From Aeromonas aquatica (GTDB lineage: Bacteria; Pseudomonadota; Gammaproteobacteria; Enterobacterales; Aeromonadaceae): a DNA stretch of 64,000 nt. A program made the translations under genes and the position numbers. How positions within the stretch are numbered: position 1 is the first letter of the stretch; each line of letters starts with the position of its first letter. The notes beneath the pieces were generated by a model. It was not told the origin of the DNA, did no database searches, and saw only the letters and a list, made by a program, of their open reading frames with translations. The stretch lies in NCBI RefSeq assembly GCF_000764655.1, contig NZ_JRGL01000161.1, forward strand, positions 1 through 64,000, in the 5' to 3' direction. Shown here piece after piece: positions 11,875 to 50,209 of the stretch.

Positions 11875-11881
11875 GGAAGCT

Positions 11882-12727: not shown

Positions 12728-12736
12728 GGGTGACAA

Positions 12737-17084: not shown

Positions 17085-17665
17085 TCACCGGCCTTGATCC
17101 TGATGTGGTTGCCGCGCTCAACCTGCCAAACGTGACGGCAATCTATGCCCTCAAGTTGGATCTGGTGAGCGGGATCAGCCGCCTGCACTCCGGCCTCGGC
17201 GAACTGGTGATCGGGGGTGAGGTTTATTACGGAGTCGGGTCATTGGGGGTGGTCAGCCCCCAGAAAGAACAGATCTCCACCTCACCGACCAAGCTCAATG
17301 TTTCCCTGACCGGGCTGGATAACTCGCTGCTGGCCGAGGTCATGCGCGAGCGCATCGTTGATCGGATGGCCTGGCTTTACCTGGTGGTGCTCGGCCCTGA
17401 CGGCGCCCCCCTCAATGCCTGCCTGCAGTTCAGCGGCAAGATAGCCCAGACCCCCATCAAGGCGGGGCGTACCAATACCATCCAGCTCACCATCTCGAAC
17501 AAGTTTGAGGATTGGCAGAAGGGGCTCAATCGGCGCAACACCGACGAGAGCCACCGCCGCCTCCATCCGAATGACCGCTTCTATCGCTATCAAAACCAGA
17601 TGGCCGATCGCTCCATTTACTGGGGCTCAAAGAAAGACGCTCCGAGTTTCAACTATAAGGACTGA
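17081..17665 (+). CDS. tail tip/hub protein in gpL position (DUF2163-like)
   Basis: The 194-residue protein begins with a DUF2163-like pattern (ALKLDLVSGISRLHSGLGELVI, KLNVSLTGLDNSLL) typical of baseplate hub N-termini. The C-terminus has a basic and Tyr-rich region (PNDRFYRYQNQMADRSIYWG). Lambda gpL, which binds an iron-sulphur cluster, occupies the same place, but a conserved cysteine cluster is not seen here. Confidence 0.7.
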   Translation: MITGLDPDVVAALNLPNVTAIYALKLDLVSGISRLHSGLGELVIGGEVYYGVGSLGVVSPQKEQISTSPTKLNVSLTGLDNSLLAEVMRERIVDRMAWLYLVVLGPDGAPLNACLQFSGKIAQTPIKAGRTNTIQLTISNKFEDWQKGLNRRNTDESHRRLHPNDRFYRYQNQMADRSIYWGSKKDAPSFNYKD

Positions 17666-17670
17666 CCGCC

Positions 17671-18072
17671 ATGCGCCATCCAGACTGGCAACTCCGCATC
17701 ATCACTACCATCCAGGCCGCCTCAGAGCGGCCTTTTTGTTGGGGTGAAAATGATTGCTGTCTGTTTGTCGCCGATGTCTGCCTTGCGGCCTGTGACAAGG
17801 ATCCCGCTGCCGAATACCGGGGGCGATATGCCACCGAGATCGGCGCCAAGCGCGTGCTTGCCAAAACTCACGGCAGCATCGAGGCGGCGCTCGATGCCCA
17901 GTTCGCCCGCATTTCTGTTGCCATGGCGCAACGGGGCGATGCCCTGGTGTTCGATGGCCCCAATGGGCTGACCGCCGGGGTGATGTGGGCGGGGAAAGTC
18001 TGGGCTATGACCGAGCAAGGTGCCCGCCCCATCCCTGATCAAACCCCCCTCATTGCCTGGAGAGTTGAATAA
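17671..18072 (+). CDS. DUF6950/NlpC-P60-like tail tip protein (gpK position)
   Basis: The 133-residue protein carries CWGENDCCLFVADV (residues 23-36), with a Cys placed like the nucleophile of NlpC/P60 cysteine peptidases. A downstream beta segment (RGDALVFDGPNGLTAGVM) could hold the partner residue. In lambda gpK such a domain may cut peptidoglycan or process the tail tip. A terminator-like hairpin lies inside the 5' part of the gene (17715-17737). Confidence 0.7.
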   Translation: MRHPDWQLRIITTIQAASERPFCWGENDCCLFVADVCLAACDKDPAAEYRGRYATEIGAKRVLAKTHGSIEAALDAQFARISVAMAQRGDALVFDGPNGLTAGVMWAGKVWAMTEQGARPIPDQTPLIAWRVE

Positions 18073-23468: not shown

Positions 23469-23484
23469 ATTTGACCCCAATCAC

Positions 23485-23513
23485 AACCCGGCCCCGCGCC
23501 GGGTTTTTCTTTT
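23485..23513 (+). terminator. Rho-independent terminator after the J-like gene
   Basis: CCCGGC pairs with GCCGGG around a short C/G loop and is followed by TTTTTCTTTT. It separates the J-like gene from the side-fibre module. Confidence 0.85.
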
Positions 23514-23527
23514 GAAGGAACCTTGCA

Positions 23528-25222
23528 ATGGCAGGACTTTGGCAACGCACCGGCAATGTCACGGTGACGAACGGCAGCAAGACCGTCACCGGTTTTGGCA
23601 CCAAGTGGAAAACCGGCACCCTCCCGATCCAGAAGGGGCACTCCTTCTATGGCCCGGACAACGCCGCCTATGAGGTGGACACCGTGGTCAGCGACACCGA
23701 GATCCTGTTGGTGGAGGCATATCGCGGCGGCACCCTGGCCAACCAGCCATACCGGATCGACATCACCCGCACCTCGACCATCAGCCAGTTCGCCGCCGAC
23801 CTCGCCTCCCTGGTGGGCAAGTACCGCGCCTGGTACGACGGCATGATGGCCTGGCTCACCGGCTCGGGGGATGTGCCTATCCTCAATCCGGACACCGGCA
23901 CCACCATCACTATTCCCAGCTGGAAGAAGGTGGCCAGCGAAGGCGAGGGTCAGGCGGCCCGCGCCAAGGTGGAGGCCGACAAGGCCGTAGCCGCCGCAGC
24001 GGTGGCGGTAGATGTAGTCAGGGCAGCAGCATTACCTCTACCCGATGTGTGGATCCCCCTCACCGACTCATTGCGTATGTTCACCGGATATGGGCGGGAG
24101 GCTAAAGTCGGCGAGGATGTTGTGGCCCGATACGTTAACTTTTCTCGCGCGACCACAGCCACTTTCATCGATAAATCTGGGGGCTTGCGAGTAGCTGCTG
24201 TAAATGAGCCGAGGTTTGAAACGGAAGGGTTGCTCGTCGAGGGGTTATCAACGAACCTGACCAATTTCTCAGAGGGCTGGTCATCAAACAGTGGGGCTAC
24301 AGCGGGCAATGCTTGGAGCCATACGTCGAAAGATTCAGCAGGATGGATAACAGTTAGCGGTGGGACTGATGATGGTCGCTCAGAGGGGTCCTATAGGGAC
24401 TTCGCCCAGGGCGCGGCGATTCAGGGGCAGACGGCCACGTTTTCGTTCGATGTGAAAAAGGTGGCCGGGTATAAATTCCGGGTGTCAATTTTTGTCGGAG
24501 GGACCGGATCAGATGGGCTCGGCACTGGCTTGGCCGCGTTTGTGGATGGCCAAGCATTTCCTTCAATTCCTGGGCTGATAGTGAAGGATATGGGGACGTG
24601 GTTGCGCATCTCGATTACTCGCAAGTTTGGGGATGGCACGAGCATCTTTCGTCTGTATCCGTTCGGTAGTAACCCTGATTCAAACGGATCGCTAACATAT
24701 CGGCGTGTACAAGTCGAAACCCAACCATATGCAACCTCATACATACCCACCACGGGCGCAGCAGCGAGTCGAGCCGCAGATGCGGTCAGCATCCCATCAG
24801 CCAGAAACATAAATCCGACAAACACCGATGTCACCTATGCAATGCAGGTGGAGTTTAGAGGTGTGCAAGTTCGTCCGTTTAGAACTGATGCGTCAATATC
24901 TCCGTCGGGCGCAGTGATTTCATCCAGCGGTAAGGCATGGTTTTTTTCGGATGCGGCAACGACAGTGCCTACATCATCGAATATGGCGGTGTTAGGGATG
25001 AATGACTTCGTTACGAACAACAACGCAGCCGGTGTCGTGGTGTGCATAAATGGGGTGCTCGGGGGGCCAAGAACTCCGTCAAGAGGGGCGGCGGAGACCA
25101 ACGCCTCTACGTTGTTCATCGGCGCAGGACAATCCCTCACAGATCCGATAAACGGCCATATCAGAAACTTCCGCATCTATCACCAGGTAACCACCGATGC
25201 GCAAATTAAGGCCATCCGATGA
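23528..25222 (+). CDS. tail side fibre with LamG-like C-terminal domain
   Basis: This 564-residue protein likely binds the host surface. The N-terminal part (1-160) looks like a virion-attachment domain with GSKTVTGFGTKW. A short Ala-rich helix follows at 140-165. The rest is a beta jelly-roll region (WIPLTDSLRMF at about 175; NGHIRNFRIYHQVTTDAQI at the C-terminus), typical of concanavalin A/LamG-type folds. From about 24000 the DNA is less GC-rich with different codon choice, suggesting the receptor-binding part was exchanged. Confidence 0.85.
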   Translation: MAGLWQRTGNVTVTNGSKTVTGFGTKWKTGTLPIQKGHSFYGPDNAAYEVDTVVSDTEILLVEAYRGGTLANQPYRIDITRTSTISQFAADLASLVGKYRAWYDGMMAWLTGSGDVPILNPDTGTTITIPSWKKVASEGEGQAARAKVEADKAVAAAAVAVDVVRAAALPLPDVWIPLTDSLRMFTGYGREAKVGEDVVARYVNFSRATTATFIDKSGGLRVAAVNEPRFETEGLLVEGLSTNLTNFSEGWSSNSGATAGNAWSHTSKDSAGWITVSGGTDDGRSEGSYRDFAQGAAIQGQTATFSFDVKKVAGYKFRVSIFVGGTGSDGLGTGLAAFVDGQAFPSIPGLIVKDMGTWLRISITRKFGDGTSIFRLYPFGSNPDSNGSLTYRRVQVETQPYATSYIPTTGAAASRAADAVSIPSARNINPTNTDVTYAMQVEFRGVQVRPFRTDASISPSGAVISSSGKAWFFSDAATTVPTSSNMAVLGMNDFVTNNNAAGVVVCINGVLGGPRTPSRGAAETNASTLFIGAGQSLTDPINGHIRNFRIYHQVTTDAQIKAIR

Positions 25223-36681: not shown

Positions 36682-37302
36682 TCAGAGGGCGGCCATGGCC
36701 TCGCGCACCAGGGCGCCTATCTTGTCCCACTCCTGCCGATCGATGAGATCGCCCGGCACCATCCAGGTGCCGCCACAGGCGAACACCGAGCCTTGGGCGA
36801 GATAGTCCTTCACATTGCTCGGGCTGACGCCGCCGGTCGGCATGAAGCGGACCGGGTAGACGGCGCTCATGGCCTTGAGCATGGGCAGGCCGCCGGAGGG
36901 CTCGGCCGGGAAGAATTTGAGGGTGCGAAGGCCCAGCTCCATCGCCTGCTCGACCAGGCTGGGGTTGTTGACCCCGGGGATCATCAGCACACCGCGCGCC
37001 TGGCAATACTGGACGATGCGCGGGTTGAGGCCGGGGCTCACGATGAAGTCCACACCGGCGTCGATGGCTTGATCCACCTGGGCCGTGGTGAGCACTGTGC
37101 CGGCCCCGATGATCATCTCGGGGAAGGCGGCGCGCATCTGACGAATGGCATCGGCGGCGGCAGGGGTACGGAAGGTGATCTCCGCGCTCGGCATGCCGTT
37201 GTCCATCAGGGCACGGCCCAGGGCCACGGCGTCATCGGCGTTCTTGATGGCGATGACGGGGATGATCTTCAGGGTCGACAGTTTTTCAAGCAATGCTGAC
37301 AT
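36682..37302 (-). CDS. eda: 2-dehydro-3-deoxyphosphogluconate (KDPG) aldolase
   Basis: Eda splits KDPG to pyruvate and glyceraldehyde-3-phosphate, the last step of uronate breakdown. The 206-residue protein has the Schiff-base lysine in LKFFPAE, the catalytic Glu in AEITFRT, and GAGTVLT and PTGGVSP phosphate motifs. kdgK is directly upstream: a GTG at 37314 would overlap its stop, but ATG 37302 gives the usual length and is preferred; neither has a strong ribosome site. Translational coupling to kdgK is likely. Confidence 0.92.
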   Translation of the reverse strand: MSALLEKLSTLKIIPVIAIKNADDAVALGRALMDNGMPSAEITFRTPAAADAIRQMRAAFPEMIIGAGTVLTTAQVDQAIDAGVDFIVSPGLNPRIVQYCQARGVLMIPGVNNPSLVEQAMELGLRTLKFFPAEPSGGLPMLKAMSAVYPVRFMPTGGVSPSNVKDYLAQGSVFACGGTWMVPGDLIDRQEWDKIGALVREAMAAL

Positions 37303-37310
37303 GGAATGTC

Positions 37311-38246
37311 TCACAGGGTAGGGGTAGTTGCTGGCATCGCCAGGTGAGGAATGATGGCCCCGCGATGCTGAATGACGGTGCTGGCCAGCAGGTGGGCATA
37401 GCGGGCCGCCTCGCTTGTCGAGGCCTTGGCCAGTCGCTTGGCGAGGTACCCGGCACTGAAGGAGTCGCCGGCTGCCGTGGTGTCGATCACCTGATCCTTC
37501 GCCAGTTGCACGGCCGGTATTTCGTCACGCTTATCGCTCTGTACGATGAGGCAGGGCTCGGCCCCGCGCTTGAGGACGATTTCACCGACGCCGAGTGCTC
37601 GGGTACGTGTCAGCGTCTGTTCAACCTGAGTGTCTCCCCACAAGGCAAATTCGTCGTCCAGGGTCAGGAAGGCGATGTCGGTCAGGGCCAGCATGGCGCT
37701 ATAGATCTGTTGTGCAGCCTCTTTGCTTTCCCACAGCCCTGGTCGGAAGTTGTTGTCAAAGGCGATCTTCACCCCCTTGACCCGACACAAGGCCAGTTGC
37801 TGCAGCAGGTTGGCCCGATCGGCGGGGGGGAGGATGGCGAGGCTGATGCCGCTCAAGTAGAGCCAGTCAAAGCGCTGCAACTGCTGGCAGATAGACCCGG
37901 CGTCCTCTCCCTGCAACCAGTAGCGGGCCGCCGCATCGTTGCGCCAATAGTGGAAGGTACGCTCCCCCTGCTCGTCGGTTTCGATGAGATAGAGGCCGGG
38001 CAGTTTGTGCTCGAGACGCTGTACCAGCTCGATGTGTACCCCTTCCTGCTGCCACTGGGTCAGCATGGCGTCGCTCATGGTGTCGGTGCCGAGGGCAGTG
38101 ACATAGGAGACGGCCAGCTCGGGGTTGGTACGCGTCAGGTAGATGGCGGTGTTGAGGGTGTCTCCTCCAAAATGACGCACTATGCCCGCCTTGCTCTCGG
38201 ATAGTTCGATCATGCACTCGCCAATGATGGCAATCTTGGTCGGCAT
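37311..38246 (-). CDS. kdgK: 2-dehydro-3-deoxygluconate kinase
   Basis: KdgK phosphorylates 2-keto-3-deoxygluconate to KDPG with ATP. The 311-residue PfkB-family protein has IGECMIEL and FGGDTLNTAIYL near the N-terminus, and the anion-hole/catalytic motif DTTAAGDSFSAGY (D is the base) near 255-267. It is followed directly by eda. The promoter carries a KdgR-like box (38305-38325) and a good TATAAT, so it should be induced when KDG binds KdgR. Confidence 0.95.
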   Translation of the reverse strand: MPTKIAIIGECMIELSESKAGIVRHFGGDTLNTAIYLTRTNPELAVSYVTALGTDTMSDAMLTQWQQEGVHIELVQRLEHKLPGLYLIETDEQGERTFHYWRNDAAARYWLQGEDAGSICQQLQRFDWLYLSGISLAILPPADRANLLQQLALCRVKGVKIAFDNNFRPGLWESKEAAQQIYSAMLALTDIAFLTLDDEFALWGDTQVEQTLTRTRALGVGEIVLKRGAEPCLIVQSDKRDEIPAVQLAKDQVIDTTAAGDSFSAGYLAKRLAKASTSEAARYAHLLASTVIQHRGAIIPHLAMPATTPTL

Positions 38247-38304: not shown

Positions 38305-38325
38305 AAATGAAACATTATTTCATAA
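38305..38325 (-). promoter_or_regulatory. KdgR operator-like box
   Basis: The palindrome ATGAAACATTATTTCAT has the GAAA-N5-TTTC core of enterobacterial KdgR boxes. It lies at the kdgK promoter and 236 bases from kdgR, so it may serve both genes. Confidence 0.72.
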
Positions 38326-38560: not shown

Positions 38561-39355
38561 ATGTCAGTGGTAGATACCTCGCCAGATTCCGTTTCATCGG
38601 TCCTGAAAGTTTTCGGCATCCTGCAGGCGCTGGGCGAGCAGAAAGAGATCGGCGTGACCGAGTTGTCCCAGCGGATCATGATGTCCAAGAGCACCGTCTA
38701 TCGCTTCCTGCAGACGATGAAGACGCTGGGCTACGTCAACCAGGAGGGGGAAACCGACAAATACACCCTGAGTCTGAAGTTGTTCGAACTCGGTGGCAAG
38801 GCGCTGGAGCATCAGGATCTGATCCAGATAGCGGATGTCGAGATGTACCAGCTGGGCAAGCTGACCAAGGAGACCCTGCATCTGGGGGCGCTCGACGAAG
38901 ACAGCATCGTCTATCTGCACAAGATTGACTCCGAGTACAACCTGCGGATGTATTCGCGCATTGGTCGTCGCCGCCCTCTCTACAGTACCGGGCTTGGCAA
39001 GGTGATGATGGCCTGGTTGCCGGAAGAGGAAGTGCGCAGCATGCTGGCCAAGGTGACGTTCGAGCGCTTCACCGAGCACACCCTGAGCAATGTCGATGAA
39101 GTGCTGGCTGAACTGGTGCAGGTGCGTGAGCAAGGTTATGCCGAAGACAATGAAGAGATGGAGCCGGGCCTGCGCTGCTTCGCCGTGCCCATCTACAGCC
39201 GGATGGGGCGCATCATCGCGGGGCTCTCCCTGTCGCTGCCCCTGGTGCGCTTCAGTGAAGAGAACAAGGGTGAGCTGGTGGGCTTGTTGCATCAGGCCGC
39301 GGCTCGCATCTCGGCCGGGCTTGGTTTTCACGACTACCCTTTTACCCCGCGCTGA
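38561..39355 (+). CDS. kdgR: KdgR-type IclR-family regulator
   Basis: KdgR represses uronate and pectin genes until 2-keto-3-deoxygluconate binds. The 264-residue protein has an N-terminal winged helix (about 28-60; LSQRIMMSKSTVYRFLQTMK) and an IclR effector domain with YSRIGRRRPLYSTGLGKVMM and the GLRCFAVPIYSRMG ligand-pocket segment. It lies between kdgK and the kdu genes. AAGGAG at 38549-38554 precedes the ATG. Confidence 0.93.
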   Translation: MSVVDTSPDSVSSVLKVFGILQALGEQKEIGVTELSQRIMMSKSTVYRFLQTMKTLGYVNQEGETDKYTLSLKLFELGGKALEHQDLIQIADVEMYQLGKLTKETLHLGALDEDSIVYLHKIDSEYNLRMYSRIGRRRPLYSTGLGKVMMAWLPEEEVRSMLAKVTFERFTEHTLSNVDEVLAELVQVREQGYAEDNEEMEPGLRCFAVPIYSRMGRIIAGLSLSLPLVRFSEENKGELVGLLHQAAARISAGLGFHDYPFTPR

Positions 39356-39477: not shown

Positions 39478-39999
39478 TTAGCTTAATTGTCGCGCTGCTG
39501 CACCTCGCGCCCGATGCAGGGTCAAGATGGTGCGGCCGTTGACGATCAAAAAACTGCCTTCCAGCAAGATCCCCCCCATCGACCCCGCCCAGAGGTTGTG
39601 CGTCAGCCAGCAGAGGGTGCTGCTCAGCATGCACAGGCGCAGCGCAAGACCTTCCAGCCGAAACAGGGCATAGGTGCTCAGGGTGGTCCCGATCAGGGTC
39701 AGCACCTGGATCGGGTGCGCCACCTGCGGCATGACCAGCAGCCAGGCCATCCCCAGGAAAAACAGCATCACCCCCAGGCCGCGATAGTAACCGGAGACCC
39801 AGGTCCTCACCGCACAGAGCAGGCAGTTGATGGCGGCGGCCGTGGCGCCAAGCAGCATGAAATGCAGGGCCATTAGCACGCCGTTGAGGGTCAGGTGCAG
39901 TCGCAGCTTCCCGTCCTGGCGTTGCAGGAAGGCGGTGACACCGATGGCGCAGGCCAGCAGGCCAAGCAGTTGGGCTAACCAGGGGGCATCGAGCAGCAT
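39478..39999 (-). CDS. YgjV-family inner-membrane protein
   Basis: The 173-residue protein has five to six membrane segments (LAQLLGLLACAIGVTAFL near the start; HFMLLGATAAAINCLLCAVR in the middle) and matches E. coli YgjV in length and pattern. The function is unknown. In E. coli ygjV lies in a uronate-related neighbourhood (uxaA, exuT), and here it sits after kduD, which hints at a shared role but proves nothing. A terminator at 40028-40050 separates it from kduD. Confidence 0.8.
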   Translation of the reverse strand: MLLDAPWLAQLLGLLACAIGVTAFLQRQDGKLRLHLTLNGVLMALHFMLLGATAAAINCLLCAVRTWVSGYYRGLGVMLFFLGMAWLLVMPQVAHPIQVLTLIGTTLSTYALFRLEGLALRLCMLSSTLCWLTHNLWAGSMGGILLEGSFLIVNGRTILTLHRARGAAARQLS

Positions 40000-40065: not shown

Positions 40066-40827
40066 TTAGCGGGCCAGCCAACCACCGTCGACGGCGATGG
40101 TGTAGCCGTTGATGTAGTCGGAAGCGGCGGAGGCCAGGAACACCACTGGGCCCATCATGTCATCCGGCACGCCCCAGCGACCGGCCGGGATCCGCTCCAG
40201 GATGGCGGCGTTGCGATCTTCATCGGCGCGCAGGGCAGTGGTGTTGTTGGTGGCCATGTAACCGGGGGCGATGGCGTTGACATTGATGCCCTGGCTGGCC
40301 CATTCGTTGGCCAGCAGACGGGTGATCCCCATGACGGCACTCTTGGAGGCGGTATAAGAGGGCACCCGGATCCCGCCCTGATAGGAGAGCATGGAGGCGA
40401 TGTTGACTATCTTGCCGCCCTGGCCCTGGGCGATGAACTGTTTGGCGACCGCCTGGGACATGAAGAAGACACTCTTGATGTTGATGTTCATCACATCGTC
40501 CCAGTCTTTCTCACTGAAGTTGATGGCATCGTCGCGGCGGATGATGCCAGCGTTGTTGACCAGGACATCGACGCGACCGAACTGGGAGACCGCCTGATCC
40601 ACCAGGGCGGGCAGGGTATCCACCTTGCTGACATCGGCCTTGAGGCTCAGGAATTGGCGACCGAGCGCTTCAACTTTGGCGATGGTCTCTGTGGGCTCGA
40701 CGATGTTGATGCCCACGATGTCACAGCCGGCTTCGGCCAGACCCAGTGCCATGCCTTGGCCCAGGCCGGTGTCACAACCGGTCACGATGGCAACCTTACC
40801 CTTCAAGTCGAATGCGTTGAGAATCAT
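40066..40827 (-). CDS. kduD: 2-dehydro-3-deoxy-D-gluconate 5-dehydrogenase
   Basis: KduD reduces 2,5-diketo-3-deoxygluconate to KDG with NADH. The SDR-family protein has 253 residues, as in E. coli. The cofactor motif is VTGCDTGLGQGMA (about 16-28), NNAG is near 90, and the catalytic Ser and YTASK follow. ATG 40827 is fixed by AGAGGAAA upstream and the family N-terminus; longer frames run into kduI. It is directly downstream of kduI, about 85 bases away. Confidence 0.95.
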   Translation of the reverse strand: MILNAFDLKGKVAIVTGCDTGLGQGMALGLAEAGCDIVGINIVEPTETIAKVEALGRQFLSLKADVSKVDTLPALVDQAVSQFGRVDVLVNNAGIIRRDDAINFSEKDWDDVMNINIKSVFFMSQAVAKQFIAQGQGGKIVNIASMLSYQGGIRVPSYTASKSAVMGITRLLANEWASQGINVNAIAPGYMATNNTTALRADEDRNAAILERIPAGRWGVPDDMMGPVVFLASAASDYINGYTIAVDGGWLAR

Positions 40828-40912: not shown

Positions 40913-41749
40913 TTAGCGCAGATCCTTGACGGCCACATGATCCATGTCGCCGAACACCTGGTTCTCACCGACCATGCCCCAGATGAAGGTGTAGGCCTGG
41001 GTACCGACACCGGCGTGGATAGACCAACTCGGGGAGATGACGGCTTGCTCGTTGTGAACCAGCAGATGACGGGTCTCGTCCGGCTTGCCCATCATGTGGA
41101 ACACGGCGGCATCGTCTTTCATGTTGAAGTAGAAGTAGACCTCCATGCGACGCTCGTGGGTGTGGCAGGGCATGGTGTTCCACAGGCTGCCTTCCTCCAG
41201 TTGGGTCATGCCCATCACCAGCTGGCAGGTCGGCAGCACGTCCGGCACCAGGTACTTGTAGATGGTGCGGCGGTTGCTGGTGGCGGCATCGCCGAGGGTG
41301 CTCGGAGACGCCTGCGCCTGGGTGACCTTGCGGGTCGGGAAGCTCACGTGGGCCGGGGCGCTGTTGTAGTAGAACTTGGCGGGTTGCGAGGCATCGATGC
41401 TGGCGAAGCTCAGCTCACGGGCACCTTGTCCCACATAGAGCGCCTCGGCGTTGCCGATCTCGAAGGGGGTGCCATCGATCATCACCACACCGGGGCCGCC
41501 GATGTTGATGAGACCGAGCTCGCGGCGCTCGAGGAAGTAGCTGACACCGAAAGTCTTGCCCAGCGCATCCGAAAAACCGAGGGTGCCGCGCACCGGCATG
41601 ATGCCACCGAACACGATGCGGTCGATGTGGCTGTAGGTCATGGTCAGCCGATCGGCACAGAAGATCTCTTCCACCAGGAATTCACGGCGCAGGCCCTGAG
41701 TGTCCAGCTGTTTGGCATGATCGCTGTGAATGCTTTGACGAATTTGCAT
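40913..41749 (-). CDS. kduI: 5-dehydro-4-deoxy-D-glucuronate isomerase
   Basis: KduI isomerises 5-keto-4-deoxyuronate to 2,5-diketo-3-deoxygluconate. The protein has 278 residues, the same length as E. coli KduI, and the same N-terminal RQSIHS and C-terminal [10 protein letters not shown]. Zinc-binding residues are in [13 protein letters not shown] (two His and a Glu), with a fourth His in SWSIHAG. ATG 41749 is preferred over an upstream start by similarity. The promoter faces the SemiSWEET-like gene with a shared KdgR-like box. Confidence 0.97.
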
Positions 41750-41850: not shown

Positions 41851-41992
41851 TTTGTTTTTGTGAGATTAAAATATGCATCACGGTGTGCCCAGGGTGGTTC
41901 GCCGTCGCTTGTCCCTGGTGGCTATTGTCCGACGGGGAGCTCAGGCGCCACAGGACGTTTATTGCCAATCTCACTCAACAACGGGTTTACAA

Positions 41993-42325
41993 ATGAAGAC
42001 GTGTGTTACCTCCAATCGACTGATCTTGCTGGCCGGCGTGGCCACGCTGAGCCTGGTATTGTTTGCCTTTGATACCGCTTCTCTCGGGCTCTGTGCGGCA
42101 TTTCTGACCACGGGATCCTTCTCGCTGCAGGTGTTCGATATCCTCAAGACGCGGGAAACCAAGGCTATTTCCACCAAGATGTACCTGGTATTCATCAGTG
42201 GATTGGCGCTGTGGCTGACCTATGGTCTGAAGTCGGGCGACACGCCCCTGATCATGGCCAATGGCATCACCCTGCTGCTGGCCAGTGCCGTGATGTTGCT
42301 GAAATGGCGCAATGAGCGGGTCTGA
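41993..42325 (+). CDS. SemiSWEET/PQ-loop-like sugar transporter
   Basis: This 110-residue protein has the SemiSWEET three-helix pattern: AAFLTTGSFSLQVFDILKTR, MYLVFISGLALWLTYGL and LIMANGITLLLASAVMLL. SemiSWEETs work as dimers and let sugars pass. The usual Pro-Gln of the PQ motif reads Leu-Gln here. An extra hydrophobic segment at 10-27 precedes the core, so four helices are predicted. It diverges from kduI with a shared regulatory region, so the cargo may be a uronate product, which is inference. Earlier in-frame starts lack a clear ribosome site. Confidence 0.78.
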   Translation: MKTCVTSNRLILLAGVATLSLVLFAFDTASLGLCAAFLTTGSFSLQVFDILKTRETKAISTKMYLVFISGLALWLTYGLKSGDTPLIMANGITLLLASAVMLLKWRNERV

Positions 42326-42406: not shown

Positions 42407-43240
42407 TCAGCGACTCAGCTCACGTAAATAGGCCACACTCTCCTGCAGCTCGTCACCCGTCAGCTCCTCGACGATGATCGGGATATGACTCAGTTTGAAG
42501 CTGTCCAGCATGGCCAATACCTCCGCATAATCGATCAGGCCCTTGTCCAGGCCCACCGATACCTTGTCACGCCCTCGCAAGATGAAGTTCTTGAAATGGA
42601 ACAACTGTATCCGCTCGCCGTGGGTGTGCAAAAAGCCCTTGAGGAGGGTGCGCCAGTCGGCGGCATTGTCGGCATCCAGCAGGTTGGCAAGGTCGAGGGT
42701 GACCGAGAAACGATCTCCCAGCCGATGGTTGAGTCGCGCCAGGCTATCGGCATCGTGGATGACGTGATCCCGCACGGCTTCCACCAGAAAGTCGCGACTC
42801 GCTTGCTCCAGATCGGGCTTGAGCTGCGCCAATGTCTGTTCCGCCTTGTTGAAGGCGGCAAGGCTGTGGTTGTCCGGGTGGAAGGTCCACTCATCATCGT
42901 TCAGAGAGCCGGTTTCACTGCCGATCAGCCTGATGCCACAACGCGTTCCCAAGTCAATGTTGAAGCGAGCCCGCTCCAGCTCACAAGCCAGAAAAGCGGC
43001 GTTCGAATGAACGGGATTGAAGTAGCTGGCCAGCAGGAAGATGGGCAGGCCAGCCTGCTGGAGATGCTGGATATGGGCGGCCAGAGTGTCGAGATCGCGG
43101 GCCTGATAGGCCTCTGGCCAGCTCTTGTGGATAGCCAGTTGCAGGCCGTCAATACCCGCCTCACGGGCTTGCACCACCAGTTCTTCCGGGGTTTGCCCCC
43201 TGAAGTCATGAGCGCGGGCACCTATCTTCAATGTGTGCAT
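42407..43240 (-). CDS. sugar phosphate isomerase/epimerase-like TIM-barrel protein
   Basis: The 277-residue protein belongs to the xylose-isomerase-like AP-endonuclease 2 fold. Recognisable strands include DGLQLAIHK, FLLASYFNP, RLIGSETG (metal-binding Glu), VTLDLANLLD and FHFKNF, ending in IPIIVEEL. This fits divalent-metal isomerases or epimerases. AAGGAGTA upstream supports ATG 43240. It is the last gene of the block after the PTS gene, with a hairpin between. The substrate is unknown; an epimerisation of the second sugar freed by GH105 is one option. Confidence 0.78.
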   Translation of the reverse strand: MHTLKIGARAHDFRGQTPEELVVQAREAGIDGLQLAIHKSWPEAYQARDLDTLAAHIQHLQQAGLPIFLLASYFNPVHSNAAFLACELERARFNIDLGTRCGIRLIGSETGSLNDDEWTFHPDNHSLAAFNKAEQTLAQLKPDLEQASRDFLVEAVRDHVIHDADSLARLNHRLGDRFSVTLDLANLLDADNAADWRTLLKGFLHTHGERIQLFHFKNFILRGRDKVSVGLDKGLIDYAEVLAMLDSFKLSHIPIIVEELTGDELQESVAYLRELSR

Positions 43241-43451: not shown

Positions 43452-45095
43452 TCAGGCTGCCGGCAACGGGGTTTCCTGTGCCGACAGTGCGGCCCGTTCC
43501 TTGTTGACCTCTTGCTCGAAATACTCGCGAACCAGAGGCGCTGACAGGCCGACCACTACCTGCAAGTTCTTGCCCGTGCGCATCACCCCAAGGGCGCCAG
43601 CCTGCTTGAGGGCCTTGTCATCCTGCACCAGGGCCTGATCCTTCACGACCAGGCGCAGACGGGTCTGACAGTTGCCTATGGTGTCGATGTTGGTGCAGCC
43701 ACCTACGCTGCGCAGGATGGCGGCGGCCCTGAGGCGATCCGGTTCCTGGCCAGCCACACCCTTGCCAGCCTGTTTGTCGCGGTAATCCTGTTTGGAGTAG
43801 AGGCGTACGTCATCTTCCTCTTCATCATCGCCACGTCCCGGGGTCAGGAAGTTGAACTTCAGGATGAGGTAGCGGAACACGAAGAAGTTGAGGGCGGCAA
43901 AGCCCAAGCCCAAGGCCAGGTGGATCCAGATCAGGTGCGCGTGGTTCTTCGCATAGAAGACCCAGTTGAACAGGATGATGTCGTTCAGACCACCGCCCAT
44001 GAAGCCGACGACACCGGACAGATAGAGCGCCACGCACAGGGTCGCGCCGATGAGGGCGTTGACCAGGTAGAGCACGGGGGCCACGAAGAGGTAGGTAAAC
44101 TCGATGGGTTCGGTGATACCGACGGCCATGGCGGTGATGATGGCCGGGATCACCAGGGCGGCGATCTTGCGTTTCATCTTCTTCTTGGCGGTGGCATAGA
44201 TGGCCAAACCGGCGCCCAGGGAGCAGAACACGCTGATGTTGCCGTACAGGGAGTAACCGGCAGCCGGGAACTGTTCAACCAGAGGCACGGTGGAGGCCGC
44301 ATAGGTGGAGACGTTCTCGATCCAGTGGGTGTAGAGGCCACCGTCGACCACGGCCGGGCCGAAGAAGAAGGGGAAGTAGACGAAACGGTGCAGACCGGTC
44401 GGCACCAGGATCCGTTCCACGAAGGCGAGCATCCACATACCGAAGGCATCGGCTTCGACATAGAAGCCCTGCATGGCATTGATCCCGACCTGTACCTTCG
44501 GCCACATCAGGCAGGTCAGATACGCCATGGGCAGCATGGTGCAGAAGGCGATGATGAACACCAGACTCATGCCCTGGAAGATGGAGAGGTAGTCAGGCAA
44601 TCTCTTCTCGAAGAAGCGATTGTGGATCCAGGTCACCACGCCACCGATGATGAGGGAGAAGATGATGCTGGTATCCAGCGTCTTGACTCCCCCCACCAGT
44701 GCCAGGCCGCTTGAGCCACCGACTTCCTGATTGAAATCGACCCCAAACTCGGGCCCCCAGAAGGTGAGCATGCTGTTGGTGAAGTAGTTGTATGCCATGT
44801 AGGCAAAGAAGGCGACCAGAGCGGCGCGCCCTTGTGCCGATTTTGCCAGACCCACCGGCAATGCCATGCAGAACAGCAGCGGGAAGTTCTTGAAGATGGT
44901 CCAACCGCCGGACTTGATGACGGTCATCACCTTGAAGAAGTTGGAGTCGGGATGGGCCAGATCGCCCATGATATCGGGCATGGTGAGCAAGCCGGTGAAG
45001 GCGAGCAACAAGCCGGTGAAGGGCAGGAAGGCGATGGGGACCGCCATGGCACCGCCAAAAGTCTGGAAGGCCCCCATAAAGTTCCGTTTGGACAT
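43452..45095 (-). CDS. PTS EIICB, glucose superfamily
   Basis: The 547-residue PTS permease has an N-terminal EIIC domain (to about 410) with GITEPIEFTYLFVAPVLYLV, the sugar-site motif of this superfamily, and a C-terminal EIIB domain with the phosphorylated Cys in IDTIGNCQTRLRL. There is no EIIA part, so it probably uses Crr (EIIA-Glc). By length it resembles the alpha-glucoside EIICB (AglA/MalX) group, but the neighbours are uronate genes. It follows GH105 by 37 bases. The imported and phosphorylated sugar is unknown and likely carries an unsaturated uronate. Confidence 0.87.
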   Translation of the reverse strand: MSKRNFMGAFQTFGGAMAVPIAFLPFTGLLLAFTGLLTMPDIMGDLAHPDSNFFKVMTVIKSGGWTIFKNFPLLFCMALPVGLAKSAQGRAALVAFFAYMAYNYFTNSMLTFWGPEFGVDFNQEVGGSSGLALVGGVKTLDTSIIFSLIIGGVVTWIHNRFFEKRLPDYLSIFQGMSLVFIIAFCTMLPMAYLTCLMWPKVQVGINAMQGFYVEADAFGMWMLAFVERILVPTGLHRFVYFPFFFGPAVVDGGLYTHWIENVSTYAASTVPLVEQFPAAGYSLYGNISVFCSLGAGLAIYATAKKKMKRKIAALVIPAIITAMAVGITEPIEFTYLFVAPVLYLVNALIGATLCVALYLSGVVGFMGGGLNDIILFNWVFYAKNHAHLIWIHLALGLGFAALNFFVFRYLILKFNFLTPGRGDDEEEDDVRLYSKQDYRDKQAGKGVAGQEPDRLRAAAILRSVGGCTNIDTIGNCQTRLRLVVKDQALVQDDKALKQAGALGVMRTGKNLQVVVGLSAPLVREYFEQEVNKERAALSAQETPLPAA

Positions 45096-45132
45096 TGATT
45101 TTTTTCTCCGAGTAATTACAACACTAAAACTG

Positions 45133-46206
45133 TTAGGCCAACCACTGGCCCTGCTCCAGCTCGAGCAGCAGCAACATCGTCAACGCCTGGGCATAGGGCA
45201 CGGGCGCCATGGCAATGTCGCAGTAGTACTGATGATCGTGGCCAATCATGGTTCCCTTGGAGGCTTCAAGGACGATGCCGCCCTCATCGATGCGCTGCCA
45301 TACCGCCCGGGCCGCCCGCAGGGCTGGCTCAATCACGCTCTCATCGAGCAGACCCAGACGGACGCCGCGCAGCATGCCGTAGGCGATCCCCGCCGTGGCG
45401 GAGGACTCTTGCGGTGAGTCGGGATCGTCGAGCACCGTGTGCCACATGCCGTTATCGGCCTGCAGCTCACACAGGGAGCGCACCTGGCGCGCCACGACTT
45501 GGGTGAGGAAGCGCCTCGTACCGGCATCCAGATGTTCCCCCATCAGATCGATGAACTCGGGGATGGCGACGGTGATCCAGGCGTTACCCCTGGCCCAGAA
45601 AGCCTCGGCGAAATGATGCCGACCGAGGTAAGTCCAGCCGTGATACCAGAGGCCGCTTTTGGGCTCGCTCAGGTAGCGGGTGTGCAGCAGAAACTGATAG
45701 ACGGCTTCGTCGATCAAGTCTTGCCGCTCCAGCACTCTCCCGGCGGTACCGAGGAACAGACAGGTCATGAAGAGGGTGTCGTCCCAGAGCTGGCCGGTAT
45801 TGGGTTGCTCCTTGACCACGTGCTGGAAGCCGCCTTCTTCGGTTCTGGGCAGGTTGGCGAGGAGATCGTCGGCCCAGTGACTGACTGCTTCACGCAGATC
45901 GGCGCGGCCGCTGTGGCCCGCCAGCAGTGCCAGGGTGATCATGGGCGCCGTGGTGTTGATCTGCATGGCAGGCAACCCCTTGGTGATCTGCCCTTCGTAC
46001 CAGGCCAGCAGGGAGGCTTGCAGCTCGGCGTCGCCCTTGTGCTCGGCATAGCGCCAGAAGCCGTAGAGACCGACGCCGACCTCCCATTCCCACTGCTCGA
46101 ACTGGATGGACAGACCCTGGCTGGCGGTCAGCTCCCCCATACCTTTCAACTGGCAGAAGCCATGGACCACCCGCTCCAGGGTGGGGATCAGTGCGTGTGG
46201 TTTCAT
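45133..46206 (-). CDS. GH105 unsaturated uronyl hydrolase, cytoplasmic
   Basis: GH105/YteR enzymes hydrate the 4,5-double bond of a terminal unsaturated uronic acid and so free it as 5-keto-4-deoxyuronate, the KduI substrate. The 357-residue protein has the (alpha/alpha)6-barrel motifs QLWDDTLFM (D142/D143, the expected acid/base) and AFWARGNAWI (about 209-218). There is no signal peptide. It overlaps the 821-residue protein gene by four bases and precedes the PTS gene, so it probably acts on imported disaccharide, perhaps phosphorylated. Confidence 0.9.
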   Translation of the reverse strand: MKPHALIPTLERVVHGFCQLKGMGELTASQGLSIQFEQWEWEVGVGLYGFWRYAEHKGDAELQASLLAWYEGQITKGLPAMQINTTAPMITLALLAGHSGRADLREAVSHWADDLLANLPRTEEGGFQHVVKEQPNTGQLWDDTLFMTCLFLGTAGRVLERQDLIDEAVYQFLLHTRYLSEPKSGLWYHGWTYLGRHHFAEAFWARGNAWITVAIPEFIDLMGEHLDAGTRRFLTQVVARQVRSLCELQADNGMWHTVLDDPDSPQESSATAGIAYGMLRGVRLGLLDESVIEPALRAARAVWQRIDEGGIVLEASKGTMIGHDHQYYCDIAMAPVPYAQALTMLLLLELEQGQWLA

Positions 46207-48668
46207 TGTGCCTCTCCACGGTAGATCACGATGGGGTCAGATCCCGCCTCGGCGGGGAAGACGTGCGAGACGCCATTGACCAGGCAGTCACCCTGCCAGC
46301 TCAGGCGCATCAGTTCCTCTTGCGCCGTGCTGGCGATGGCGGTCTCACCCTCCATCAGACGTACCTCGAGGGTCGCCATGCGCTGACAGAAGGCGGCGAA
46401 GGCTGTCTCATCTCCGTGGCCGATCTCGATATACCAGGCCACCTGACGGGCGTAGGCGCGAACCTCGCAGCCCGCCGTCATGCCCTCGGTCACCGCCTGT
46501 AGCGGTGCCGAGCAGCCGATGGCGGCGAAGGCATTCCCCGCCCGCACTACACGGCTGTGGGGGGTGGTGATCACCCGATCGAAGGCCTCGGCCGGCAGGT
46601 AGAGGTGGGTCCAGGGGAAGGGCTCGTCCTCGGCCAGTTGATAAAGCTGCAGGACACGGTTTTCCACCTGCATCACCCGCGGCAACACGCCATTGCCGGA
46701 CCAGTAGGAGGGGCGTTTCTCGCCGCCGGGTTCGGCCTCGCCCGGGTGGTTGACCCAGAGCTTGGCGTCATGGCAGGAGGCGAACTGCAGATCCACCAGA
46801 TGCTGCTGGTGGCCCCGCTGGCCGCTGTGGTGATCGACGCAGCTGGAGAGGCTGACGCCGGGCTCCTTCCAGACGACGATCTTGCCGCCGCCGCACTGGT
46901 AATGGGCCGACAGCGAGCCTTGGTGCAGGGTTGCGTAACCATCGGCCTCGACCGGCGGTTGGTAATCGCTGGCGCAGAACAGCGGCAGTGAGGCGCATTT
47001 GCGGTTATACCAGCCACCGCTCCAGGCGACGTTGCCGTAGGCCGACAGCTCGGTGAGCACACCCGCCAGCAGCTCTTTTTCGTAGACCCGGCCCATGGTG
47101 CCGGTGGCGATGCCGGCCTGGTAGTGCAGGGCACTCAGCCGCATCAGCCGATCGATCAGTCCTTTGGCGCGCTCGCGCACCCAGGCATCGTCCGCCAGCT
47201 GATAGAGGGCAAACAGACCTATGTAGTCGACCGGGTAGTAGGGGGCCGAATTCCACTCGACGAAGCCGTGCTCCTCGATGGCATCGAACCACAGACCCAG
47301 GCGCTGGGCAGCCAGGGCACGTTGCTGCTCGCCCTTGCGGCCGGAGGCCAGGAACAGCTCATTCGGGAACATCTGGCCAGCCAGATACTGGGCTGCGTGG
47401 AAGCAGAGGGTGTGGTTCTCGCTCCAGAACCACATCACGTCGTTGCCCGGCTCATCCAGCCAGTAGCGGTAGCCGAGTATGGTAGAACGCACTCGCCGCC
47501 ACAGGGTGGCCGGGAAGTGCTCACCCTCGTGCTGGCACCAGATCCAGAGCAGCGGCACCAGGGAGAAGTCGGAGCAATCCTCGCGGGCGCTGATCCGTTT
47601 CAGGGTATCGAGCAGCAGTTGCTCCGCGTCGGCCGTGATCTCGCCGCAGTGCAGCATGGCCAGCAGGCGGGCGGTTCTATCCATACCGTGTTGCGCGGTA
47701 TAACGCAGGGCCTGCTGCTTGCGCGCTGGCAGGCTAGCCTCGGTCCCGGCCGCGCAGGGTTCGGCCATGAGGTTGACGCCGAAGCTGCGGTTGAGGCTGA
47801 CACCGTCGCAGCTCAGGGTCAGGACTATCTGGTAGTGAGCGGGGCCAATCTCGGCGGGGAGGGTCAGGGTCAACGCCTGGCTGTTCGCCGCGAGTTCACC
47901 GAAGTCGACCCGGCGGGGCCTGAAGTTGTCGTTGCCCATGCCATGGATCTCGCCATGCAGGCGGACAGTACGGGCAGGGGAGGCGTCACCGAGGCGGATC
48001 CGCACCTGATTGTGCCAGGCCGCGAGCTCGGGGCGCATGCTGGCGGCCAAGCGGGTCAGGTCGTCGAGCACGGGAGCGGCTATGCCGGGCAGGGAGACAC
48101 CCAGCGACACCTTACCCTGGTAGACGAGCTGCAGGGCAAAGATGGTATCGCGCTCGAACAGCTCCTCCAGGTGGATCCGCAGGTTGTTTTTTCCCGCCCG
48201 CAGCGGCAACGCCACATCGAGGCTCTGCATCTTGTTGCGGGTGAAGGGGGTAAATCTGGCAACGGCCACGCCGTCACACCAGAGGCGGGCGCCGCCACAG
48301 GTCGACAGCCGGAATGGATAGGTGCCTGCCTCATCGGCGTGCAACTCCACCTCCAGCCAACGCTGTACATGAAACGGCAGGCGATTGAAGGAGGAGAAGG
48401 AGACGACATCCCCCTCGCCAGTGAAGCTGACCTGGGTCAGTGGCAGGATCTGTGCCGGATCCACTGTCCGCTCGGCCATCTGCTGGCGGAAGATCTGCCG
48501 ACAGAAGGCATCCTCTTTCGGCCCCCCGCCGTTCTGGAACCGATAGTCCATGGTCATGTCCATGGTTTCTCCGGTGAAGAACTCGGCGAATCGCTCCTCA
48601 CGGGGAGCTGAGACACAAAAACGCGTGAGTGCCGAATTTGGCTCGAGCACCCAACTTCCAAGCTTCAT
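46203..48668 (-). CDS. unrecognised 821-residue cytoplasmic protein, (alpha/alpha)-toroid-like
   Basis: I do not recognise a named family. Residues about 80-200 look like a beta-sandwich (VQRWLEVELHADEAGTYPF, RLWCDGVAVARF). Residues about 350-570 are helical with rich aromatic motifs (DVMWFWSENHTLCFHAAQYL, GFVEWNSAPYYPVDYIGL, GTMGRVYEKE) like lyases or hydrolases with an alpha/alpha barrel. The C-terminal third is beta-rich with many His and Trp. There is no signal peptide. AGGAG precedes the ATG at 48668, and it is the first gene of the operon with GH105 and PTS. A polysaccharide lyase or glycoside hydrolase role is likely but unproven. Confidence 0.8.
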   Translation of the reverse strand: MKLGSWVLEPNSALTRFCVSAPREERFAEFFTGETMDMTMDYRFQNGGGPKEDAFCRQIFRQQMAERTVDPAQILPLTQVSFTGEGDVVSFSSFNRLPFHVQRWLEVELHADEAGTYPFRLSTCGGARLWCDGVAVARFTPFTRNKMQSLDVALPLRAGKNNLRIHLEELFERDTIFALQLVYQGKVSLGVSLPGIAAPVLDDLTRLAASMRPELAAWHNQVRIRLGDASPARTVRLHGEIHGMGNDNFRPRRVDFGELAANSQALTLTLPAEIGPAHYQIVLTLSCDGVSLNRSFGVNLMAEPCAAGTEASLPARKQQALRYTAQHGMDRTARLLAMLHCGEITADAEQLLLDTLKRISAREDCSDFSLVPLLWIWCQHEGEHFPATLWRRVRSTILGYRYWLDEPGNDVMWFWSENHTLCFHAAQYLAGQMFPNELFLASGRKGEQQRALAAQRLGLWFDAIEEHGFVEWNSAPYYPVDYIGLFALYQLADDAWVRERAKGLIDRLMRLSALHYQAGIATGTMGRVYEKELLAGVLTELSAYGNVAWSGGWYNRKCASLPLFCASDYQPPVEADGYATLHQGSLSAHYQCGGGKIVVWKEPGVSLSSCVDHHSGQRGHQQHLVDLQFASCHDAKLWVNHPGEAEPGGEKRPSYWSGNGVLPRVMQVENRVLQLYQLAEDEPFPWTHLYLPAEAFDRVITTPHSRVVRAGNAFAAIGCSAPLQAVTEGMTAGCEVRAYARQVAWYIEIGHGDETAFAAFCQRMATLEVRLMEGETAIASTAQEELMRLSWQGDCLVNGVSHVFPAEAGSDPIVIYRGEAQ

Positions 48669-49196: not shown

Positions 49197-49904
49197 TTAG
49201 AAGATGTACTCAACCCCGACACGCCAGCGCCACTGCCAATCGTTGGGGTAGGGGCTGTCATCGGTCGGATCGTTGTAGGAGACATAACCAATCTCGGTAA
49301 ACGGACGCCAGTTCTTGTTAATAGGGACGCGGATGGTGACGTTATTCAGATAGGAATAGTCTTCACCATTGAAATCAGGGTAGTCGAGCTTCTTATATTC
49401 GAAGTCGTAGGCGATGGACCAGTTCTCCGCGTTATAGCCGAGATAATAATTCAACTGGAAATAGTGACCATTTTCCTTGTTCATTTCGTCAACATAATTA
49501 CGCTGACCCACCCGGAAACGTGCGGCAGTATAGAAGTTCTCGTTTATCCAATAAGTTGGCTTGAAATGAACACGCAGATCTTGCACGTCATCCGTGATCT
49601 CGGTATTGAATCCAGCCTCCCACCACCATTTATCGTTGGGCTTGGCAAGGTAGCTCAAATCATATTCTGTTCCCGTGGTGTGGAGTTCATCGAATGCCCC
49701 TTCTCCCTCACCCCCGCTGGTAAATTTGGACTCTACGCCAAAGCCCCAGCCATTATCGAAACGATGTGATACTACCAGGCGATCGCTCTGTTGATCCTGC
49801 TTCTCCAGAAACTCGTGGCGATAATTGAGGCTCCATGCATTGGCATTCATGCTGGTGAGCGCCGAGCAGGCGGCAATGGCGGCACATGCAAATTTTAACT
49901 TCAT
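49197..49904 (-). CDS. kdgM: KdgM/NanC-family acidic-oligosaccharide porin
   Basis: KdgM-type porins are monomeric 12-stranded barrels that let acidic oligosaccharides such as oligogalacturonates through the outer membrane. The 235-residue protein has a signal peptide (1-23, ending NANA) and alternating amphipathic strands with many Tyr and Trp (WSLNYRHEFLEKQ at the start). It ends RVGVEYIF, with the terminal Phe used for barrel insertion. It lies near the uronate genes with KdgR-like boxes upstream. The oligosaccharide type is not certain. Confidence 0.9.
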   Translation of the reverse strand: MKLKFACAAIAACSALTSMNANAWSLNYRHEFLEKQDQQSDRLVVSHRFDNGWGFGVESKFTSGGEGEGAFDELHTTGTEYDLSYLAKPNDKWWWEAGFNTEITDDVQDLRVHFKPTYWINENFYTAARFRVGQRNYVDEMNKENGHYFQLNYYLGYNAENWSIAYDFEYKKLDYPDFNGEDYSYLNNVTIRVPINKNWRPFTEIGYVSYNDPTDDSPYPNDWQWRWRVGVEYIF

Positions 49905-50189: not shown

Positions 50190-50209
50190 AAATGAAATGG
50201 CGTTTCTTT
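50190..50209. promoter_or_regulatory. KdgR-like box upstream of kdgM
   Basis: AAATGAAATGGCGTTTCTTT keeps the GAAA-N5-TTTC core of the kdgK box. It is about 290 bases before the kdgM start and about 70 bases above the proposed promoter. Confidence 0.5.

Follow-up and report, generated by a model that had tools for sequence, protein, structure and literature searches.

Uronate oligosaccharides enter enterobacterial cells through TogMNAB, TogT or similar transporters, and GH105 enzymes of the YteR/RhiN type are unsaturated rhamnogalacturonyl hydrolases. The locus described here lies in a 64,000-nucleotide stretch of Aeromonas aquatica DNA, hereafter the window (Table 1). It shares with the enterobacterial kdg/kdu regulon the same downstream genes and KdgR-like boxes, but has a PTS permease, EIICB, where TogMNAB or TogT serve. 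Its GH105 belongs to the same family as YteR and RhiN and has the same probable cytoplasmic location, but it is distinguished by its PTS partner, with which a rhamnose-ended substrate is improbable, and by a near-constant neighbour, the 821-residue protein Y821. Carriers recognized by the alpha-glucoside PTS model TIGR02005 are of the same permease family as EIICB and share with it the EIIB cysteine, the ITEP motif, the lack of an EIIA domain of their own and pocket Glu/Arg residues that are kept in most members; EIICB differs from them in having GH105 and Y821 for GH4, arginine for histidine at residue 237, and a separate, long-stemmed clade.

The entry path that the original prediction called unusual is indeed so, but it has a precedent in Streptococcus agalactiae, for which PMC6837340 demonstrates PTS import of unsaturated hyaluronan disaccharide followed by DhuI and DhuD. 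The UGL of the streptococcal glycosaminoglycan cluster is a GH88 enzyme, according to PMC12838403. That cluster and the Aeromonas locus, as we read it, have in common PTS entry of a uronate sugar, a cytoplasmic unsaturated-uronyl hydrolase and an isomerase-reductase route to KDG. The streptococcal system, however, is that of a Firmicute acting on host glycans with a mannose-family EIIA/B/C/D and GH88, whereas the Aeromonas system is proteobacterial and pairs a glucose-superfamily EIICB and the general EIIA-Glc with GH105 and Y821. It seems that a re-purposed phosphorylating sugar pump feeds acidic-sugar breakdown in Aeromonas.

Gene order and predicted KdgR sites

Every gene named in the original prediction was found in its place by domain or family models (eda by eye; Y821 as an open reading frame that matches no such model), and the proximity of kduI, kduD, kdgK, eda, kdgR and the KdgM porin to the Y821, GH105 and EIICB operon is confirmed. 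This minus-strand operon runs in the order Y821, GH105, EIICB, with a TIM-barrel gene as its fourth member, and the GH105 ATG overlaps the Y821 stop codon (ATGA). Because a plus-strand SemiSWEET gene separates the TIM-barrel gene from kduI, the kdu genes are adjacent to the operon and outside it; kduI and kduD matches also adjoin the Y821-GH105 module at locus L083. The TIM-barrel family is narrow, with 41 database matches (Aeromonas, Buttiauxella, Yokenella and a few others), and a longer reading frame of the gene gave no domain match. The porin gene kdgM, 528 nt upstream of Y821, occupies the same position at loci L004, L005 and L015.

A search of the window with a KdgR-box consensus returned two predicted sites against 0.07 expected, of which the one upstream of kdgM has 2 mismatches; no such box lies directly upstream of Y821. 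KdgR-like boxes also precede kdgM in L004 and L005, and weakly in L015. A looser pattern gave two more matches remote from the pathway, at positions 68 and 32852.

Table 1. Features of the uronate locus, in window coordinates
Feature	Position	Strand	Assignment or remark
eda (KDPG aldolase)	36682-37314	-	identified by eye
kdgK	37311-38246	-	NF052444, 482 bits, above NCBIfam cut-off
KdgR-box-like palindrome	38306-38324		upstream of kdgK-eda
kdgR	38561-39355	+	NF011671, 418 bits, above NCBIfam cut-off
kduD	40066-40827	-	TIGR01832, 442 bits, above NCBIfam cut-off
kduI	40913-41749	-	NF002091, 443 bits, above NCBIfam cut-off
SemiSWEET gene	41873-42325	+	
Xylose-isomerase-like TIM-barrel protein	42407-43240	-	PF01261 at 2e-17
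EIICB, glucose superfamily	43452-45095	-	PTS_EIIC and PTS_EIIB domains
GH105 unsaturated uronyl hydrolase	45133-46206	-	PF07470, 282 bits
Y821, 821 aa	46203-48668	-	without known family
KdgM-type acidic-oligosaccharide porin	49197-49904	-	PF06178, 141 bits, above Pfam cut-off
KdgR-box-like palindrome	50191-50209		~287 nt upstream of kdgM

A GH105-linked clade of EIICB carriers

EIICB scores 657 bits against TIGR02005, above the curated cut-off of 607.3; GH4-linked carriers above this cut-off score 701-907 bits. In a quick tree that leaves out L087, EIICB falls in a clade of its own of 11 rows, on a long stem with SH-aLRT 100. The original prediction had held that a clear grouping with alpha-glucoside carriers, together with uronide growth unaffected by its loss, would speak against it; EIICB does pass the family model but forms a separate clade. 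GH105 lies beside all 11 clade members (9 fetched loci plus L008 and L010) and GH4 beside none, whereas GH4 lies beside 49 of the 51 TIGR02005 relatives outside the clade; the 60 loci around TIGR02005 relatives divide into 9 with GH105 beside EIICB, 49 with GH4, and 2 (L147 and L148) with neither. Residue 237 is arginine in 11/11 clade members and histidine in 48/48 GH4-linked carriers, a count that excludes L147, L148 and the broken L153. Among the best 120 of 1315 database matches, Arg237 occurs in all 19 proteins at least 64% identical to EIICB, and histidine in the other 101.

These observations bear on whether EIICB is an ordinary alpha-glucoside carrier, placed beside uronate genes by accident or importing unrelated glucosides. 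The TIGR02005 score would be explained, as would the name alpha-glucoside-specific that several of its nearest relatives carry in the databases, but the clade is monophyletic and invariably GH105-linked, R237 is invariant, and in Aeromonas this EIICB is found only with Y821. We therefore rejected an ordinary alpha-glucoside PTS on gene linkage, clade and R237, and regard it as the least probable account of the locus. The database names 'alpha-glucoside-specific PTS' and 'beta-galactosidase BglB' are probably misleading for these genes; searches of the open-licence literature brought up no report that pairs GH105 with such an EIICB, nor the publication behind the Agrobacterium names BglB and PglB.

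Arg237 changes the sugar-site motif GLHH of TIGR02005 carriers to GLHR and aligns with PtsG His212, which makes weak contact with glucose O6 according to PMC11393339. Replacement of this histidine might disturb C6 phosphorylation, and EIICB might then mainly sense its sugar or pass it unphosphorylated while a further importer exists, for which the 14 SBP_bac_1 matches in the genome could be cited. Yet the EIIB phosphocysteine, Cys476 in the motif NCQTRLR, and Glu329 of the EIIC ITEP motif are both intact, and none of the 10 SBP_bac_1 matches compared resembles two SBPs from Y821 loci, leaving such a role very unlikely in our view. The genome has no GPH symporter above cut-off. EIICB is without an EIIA domain, and one EIIA-Glc-type protein was found in the genome.

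The Y821-GH105 module and its neighbouring transporters

The neighbourhood search for EIICB, GH105 and Y821 that had been proposed with the original prediction was made at the best 80 of the 496 Y821 relatives found in one genome scan. GH105 adjoins Y821 in 77/80 loci, and the metagenome protein P0113 (1190 aa) is a Y821-GH105 fusion; the association exceeds chance. Transporters at the same 80 loci comprise 9 EIICB, 52 MalK-type ABC, 8 Opp-type ABC and 4 GPH, with none found at 7. Six of the 80, all Kluyvera, keep Y821-GH105 with no such EIICB among the matches listed for the genome, and G233 and G275, of the same order, have Y821 with only GH4-linked carriers, so this EIICB is not required everywhere. 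Of 394 genomes sampled from the order, three have such an EIICB (>1100 bits; next 627), and these are the same three Aeromonas that carry Y821 among 61 relatives (37 Aeromonas). Sugar kinases are present at 0/9 PTS loci versus 11/71 other loci (12 if L027 is counted), a base rate too low for their absence to serve as proof of phosphorylation, and we dropped that argument.

Because of this transporter exchange, the GH105-linked EIICB clade, Arg237 and the KdgR-like boxes, PTS-coupled entry of a uronate sugar appears well supported at the level of sequence; that EIICB is the importer, that its cargo is phosphorylated, and the order of steps are what we infer from it. The PTS route originally predicted is thus upheld insofar as EIICB is tied to GH105 and Y821, not GH4, but not in its premise that the cargo is already an unsaturated disaccharide. 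Import in that form is doubtful since Y821 looks cytoplasmic and is almost always paired with GH105, so that an intracellular origin of the unsaturated end is more likely.

The nearest PDB entries to GH105 (3pmm, 3qwt and 4xuv) are GH105 structures, and a search of the whole genome turned up no other GH88/105 match; it is a probable cytoplasmic hydrolase of unsaturated uronides. Neither it nor Y821 has an N-terminal hydrophobic stretch, and Y821, too, is probably cytoplasmic. No Pfam, NCBIfam or PDB relative of Y821 was detected. Its N-terminal part is weakly PA14-like (E 0.11 for Y821 itself; a match in 20/49 relatives, best 4.5e-5), and the single match of a PDB profile search, at E 0.34, falls inside this stretch. 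Residues N418-H419, Y477, H620-Q-Q-H623 and D626 are invariant in 69/69 alignment rows and resemble, in kind and spacing, what we take to be the pattern of the toroid-type lyases PL12/15/17/21 (an N-H pair, a Tyr ~58 residues on and a C-terminal His cluster), although motif matches alone are weak. The lyase call rests on this pattern because profile comparisons were negative: there was no Pfam heparinase match among 49 family members at E up to 10, no profile match between Y821 and heparinase II/III-type enzymes across 30 proteins and the proteins of 20 further regions, and an hhalign probability of at most 0.3%, a figure that leaves out one set of 12 sequences. We infer that Y821 is probably a uronate lyase acting by beta-elimination, and its family is likely a new carbohydrate-active enzyme.

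Y821 might instead be a glycoside hydrolase, removing for example an alpha-linked cap, with GH105 acting on an externally made product. The failure of profiles to place it in a lyase family would fit, as would GH28 hydrolases near the Y821-GH105 pair in 42 of the 80 loci, but the invariant residues resemble toroid-type uronate lyases, and we consider a hydrolase doubtful while giving it real weight. Somewhat less probable, and unlikely in our judgement, is that an outside lyase makes an unsaturated disaccharide that enters through the PTS and receives its phosphate on the hexose at the reducing end, with Y821 in another role, for example trimming off a decoration or cleaving longer chains. GH105 and the kdu genes fit this, and the streptococcal PTS described in PMC6837340 takes up just such a hyaluronan product. 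Against it, Y821 stays beside GH105 whatever the transporter, as a maker of the GH105 substrate would, and no polysaccharide lyase was noticed by eye in the window. Moreover, unsaturated rhamnogalacturonan disaccharide, the substrate for which GH105 enzymes are best known, has rhamnose at its end and so offers no C6-OH.

Proposed pathway and candidate cargo

In the pathway that we favour, an acidic oligosaccharide would cross the outer membrane through KdgM, and EIICB, receiving its phosphate from the general EIIA-Glc (Crr), would move it inward while phosphorylating one of its hexose units at C6. In the cytoplasm, Y821 would then cut beside the uronate, with beta-elimination as the most likely mechanism, to leave a terminal 4,5-unsaturated uronate for removal by GH105. 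KduI, KduD, KdgK and Eda would process the unsaturated uronate, and glycolysis would take up the hexose phosphate, with KdgR repressing until KDG accumulates. We hold this whole explanation, a PTS-fed Y821 lyase and GH105, jointly with the view that the module is fed elsewhere by ABC transporters or GPH symporters and here by a PTS, to be somewhat more probable than its negation.

Rhamnose and uronates have no C6-OH available for phosphorylation. We therefore set aside the disaccharides of rhamnogalacturonan, ulvan, homogalacturonan and alginate as cargo for the PTS; the pectin, rhamnogalacturonan and ulvan digests proposed earlier are, on chemical grounds, improbable sources, since their disaccharides have no hexose bearing a free C6-OH. 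The GlcA-(1->6)-Gal disaccharide of gum arabic was set aside because its C6 is blocked.

A decidedly speculative reading, to which we give little credence, is that Y821 founds a new cytoplasmic lyase family in a module for breaking down Hex(N)-(1->4)-GlcA-inositol, which forms the head group of plant GIPC sphingolipids. EIICB would phosphorylate the terminal hexose, Y821 would free hexose-6-phosphate via beta-elimination, and GH105 would separate unsaturated GlcA from inositol. In plants, the GlcA-inositol of GIPCs bears Man, Glc, GlcN or GlcNAc, according to PMC9113257. If true, this reading would unite several neighbour genes, most of whose matches fall below curated cut-offs: mannose-handling genes at the marine Y821 loci L017, L018 and L019; a GlcNAc-kinase-like gene in 10/10 Pectobacteriaceae Y821 loci (two scanned); a kinase and weakly NagB-II-like and inositol-dehydrogenase-like genes in Devosia (L040); and iol genes adjoining the module in some Rhizobiales (IolG and IolC in L071 and IolC in L069, above cut-off). 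At L078 an inositol dehydrogenase match falls just under cut-off. Inositol use in the window's own organism is unsupported, since its genome has no iolE above cut-off; such a match occurs in 1/3 Y821-bearing and 1/34 other Aeromonas.

What emerges is a conserved module that would split uronates inside the cell, and whose importer appears to have been swapped among ABC, symporter and PTS types. In one PTS clade, GH105 takes the place that a GH4 phospho-glycosidase holds beside related carriers, and the altered residue at the sugar O6 site, R237, would offer a precise handle on specificity. Y821 represents a widespread family without Pfam or NCBIfam match.

Gene layout and the Y821-GH105 pair

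The window lies on contig C70 of a 4.58-Mb genome, and every gene listed in the original prediction is present, although its account of the minus-strand operon had overlooked a fourth gene encoding a TIM-barrel protein. Past this gene come an opposite-strand SemiSWEET gene, kduI and kduD, and then kdgK-eda, with kdgR divergent. SemiSWEET-like membrane proteins lie on either side of kduI-kduD; the plus-strand one passes NF037968 and has a counterpart adjoining the TIM-barrel gene in L004 and L005 also, and the minus-strand one was recognised by eye only. Also in the window is a long run of genes that looks like a prophage; its terminase-, portal-, protease/capsid-, tape-measure- and tail-tip-like members were all recognised by eye only.

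Features of the window
Feature	Position	Strand	Remark
kdgM	49197-49904	minus	
Y821	46203-48668	minus	
GH105	45133-46206	minus	ATGA overlap with Y821
EIICB	43452-45095	minus	
TIM-barrel gene	42407-43240	minus	fourth operon gene
SemiSWEET-like	41873-42325	plus	
SemiSWEET-like	39478-39999	minus	
Phage-like run	~5400-25200	plus	

Using a KdgR-box consensus and allowing at most 3 mismatches, we found 2 candidate boxes in 64 kb against 0.07 expected, one upstream of kdgK-eda and the other ~287 nt upstream of kdgM. A looser form gave 4 matches against 0.67 expected: the same two, and two at 68 and 32852 that do not lie near the pathway genes. Counterparts of the kdgM-upstream box are present in A. 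rivipollensis with 1 mismatch and in Yokenella with 2; Buttiauxella has a weak one with 3, and another 3-mismatch site of this kind elsewhere. Upstream of Y821, no box at up to 4 mismatches was found in 12 Enterobacteriaceae loci without kdgM.

Searches of Pfam, NCBIfam and PDB gave no match to Y821; the one exception is a stretch with weak PA14 similarity, seen in 20 of 49 relatives. Relatives were scanned in one genome per species and the best 80 of 496 kept; GH105 adjoins Y821 in 77 of these 80 loci (exceptions L040, L047 and L056), and a metagenome protein of 1190 aa, P0113, is a natural Y821-GH105 fusion. Because neither protein has a hydrophobic N-terminus, both should act in the cytoplasm. 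The genome search returned one GH88/105 protein. The window GH105 passes NF051900, whose name, "beta-galactosidase BglB", looks doubtful for this protein; its Rhizobiales relatives adjoin a gene passing "polygalacturonase PglB" (L049). Invariant residues of Y821 (N418-H419, Y477 and H620-Q-Q-H623-x-x-D626, 69 of 69 rows) are reminiscent, in kind and spacing, of toroid-type lyases; profile comparison with heparinase II/III-type proteins did not back the lyase reading.

Transporters and the EIICB clade

Transporter classes were assigned at the same 80 loci, the most similar of the 496 relatives rather than a random sample. A MalK-type ABC transporter accompanies Y821 at 52 (Pectobacterium, Dickeya, most Rhizobiales), an Opp-type ABC transporter at 8, and a GPH symporter at 4 (Photobacterium, Catenovulum, Psychromonas, an Alteromonadaceae bin). 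The combination of EIICB, GH105 and Y821, for which a neighbourhood search had been proposed, recurs, with EIICB at 9 of the 80 (Aeromonas, Yokenella, Buttiauxella, Silvania twice, an Enterobacteriaceae isolate, Klebsiella, Cedecea, Lelliottia). No transporter was found within the 6.5-kb limit at 7 loci: Oryzibacter L066, where Opp-type genes lie past that limit, and six Kluyvera loci (L009, L011, L012, L013, L014, L016), which retain Y821-GH105 with no window-type EIICB among the matches listed for their genomes and no recognised adjoining transporter. Upstream of the Kluyvera pair, as in 12 Enterobacteriaceae loci, is a ~557-aa protein without Pfam or NCBIfam match.

A clear place for EIICB among alpha-glucoside carriers, together with unaffected uronide growth on its loss, had been named as evidence against the original prediction, and the placement is mixed. 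At 657 bits EIICB clears the cut-off (607) of TIGR02005, the alpha-glucoside model, but the AglA-like carriers found in Kluyvera and its relatives reach ~890-907, and EIICB forms a separate clade in which GH105 replaces the GH4 partner of its relatives. Among 60 loci round TIGR02005-type genes, the best-scoring 30 from each of two match lists, the neighbour is GH105 in 9, GH4 in 49 (counting L153, a broken pair) and neither in 2. A quick tree of 62 rows sets the 11 window-type rows on one side of a single branch (SH-aLRT 100), with the sister group unsure because of long branches, notably L150. Window-type EIICB occurs in 3 of 394 sampled genomes of the order (>1100 bits; next best 627); these are also the 3 Aeromonas genomes, out of 37, that gave a Y821 match. 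Beyond that genus Y821 also occurs without it, namely in G233, G275 and six Kluyvera. EIICB would be served by the one EIIA-Glc-type protein that the genome search returned, which is encoded on another contig.

The sugar-site motif is GLHR in window-type EIICB, in contrast to GLHH in related carriers. R237 is present in 11 of 11 window-type rows, and His in 48 of 48 GH4-linked rows; among the best 120 of 1315 database matches, all 19 proteins with 64% or higher identity to the window EIICB carry R237, and the remaining 101, none above 51% identity, carry His. By shared motif and by alignment with the PtsG-like protein of the same genome (L086), R237 occupies the position of PtsG His212, to which PMC11393339 assigns a weak contact with glucose O6 and a part in gating the site. 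R237 may help hold an acidic sugar. EIICB retains its EIIB cysteine (in NCQTRLR) and its EIIC glutamate (in ITEP). Cargo may differ between members of the clade: Silvania-type EIICB (L006, L020, P0176, P0177, P0186) has FINH instead of FVER, a change touching residues that hold O2/O3 in PtsG.

Substrate and proposed pathway

Carriers of this kind phosphorylate the C6-OH, as is generally known and as PMC6837340 also states; the cargo therefore needs a glucose, mannose or hexosamine unit, and rhamnose-ended disaccharides (rhamnogalacturonan, ulvan) and all-uronate ones (pectin, alginate) are poor candidates. Neighbouring genes give conflicting clues. GH28, which lies near Y821-GH105 at 42 of the 80 loci (41 of the MalK-type ABC class, 1 of the GPH class), hints at a pectic sugar. 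Mannose is hinted at by mannose-isomerase-like genes (L017, L019) and by ManA with a manno/fructokinase-like gene (L018), ManA scoring over its cut-off and the others below theirs. Hints of an amino sugar come from Devosia, where one gene weakly resembles NagB-II (68 bits against a cut-off of 430), and from a BadF-type GlcNAc-kinase-like gene in all 10 Pectobacteriaceae loci (Pectobacterium and Dickeya; L022, L024-L032), two of which were scanned and gave 214-223 bits against a cut-off of 370. At these 10 loci this gene and a neighbour, both divergent from Y821, follow the SBP gene; the neighbour encodes a ~183-aa protein, and one of two scanned copies matched BadF weakly. Inositol is hinted at by IolG (440, cut-off 355) and IolC (413, cut-off 300) at L071, IolC (350) at L069 and an inositol dehydrogenase at L078 (523.5, below its cut-off of 540), a clue weakened by the general abundance of such genes in rhizobia.

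The plant GIPC head group is one glycan class with all hinted units except GalA (PMC9113257). The combined proposal that Y821 founds a new cytoplasmic lyase family and that the module digests this head group strikes us as very improbable; the window's own genome has no iolE over cut-off, and across Aeromonas the presence of iolE does not follow that of Y821 (1 of 3 genomes with Y821, 1 of 34 others).

The entry path had been called unusual. Its kind is already known, because a streptococcal PTS is established as importing unsaturated hyaluronan disaccharide, feeding UGL (GH88) and an isomerase-reductase route (PMC6837340, PMC12838403). New here, by comparison, are a glucose-superfamily carrier of alpha-glucoside descent, its pairing with GH105 instead of GH4, R237 and the partner Y821. 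In the literature searched we found no paper that brings these features together.

PTS import, phosphorylation and the GH105 step are retained from the original prediction as a proposal, but the unsaturated end, which it took to be present at import, is now tentatively attributed to intracellular Y821, because of the near-constant GH105 pairing under any transporter and the lyase-like kind and spacing of the invariant residues. The pathway probably runs from KdgM, as outer entry for an acidic oligosaccharide, to EIICB, which would take it in and phosphorylate it; Y821 would then cleave it, creating the unsaturated end inside the cell, and GH105 would free an unsaturated uronate to be degraded to the end via KduI-KduD-KdgK-Eda.
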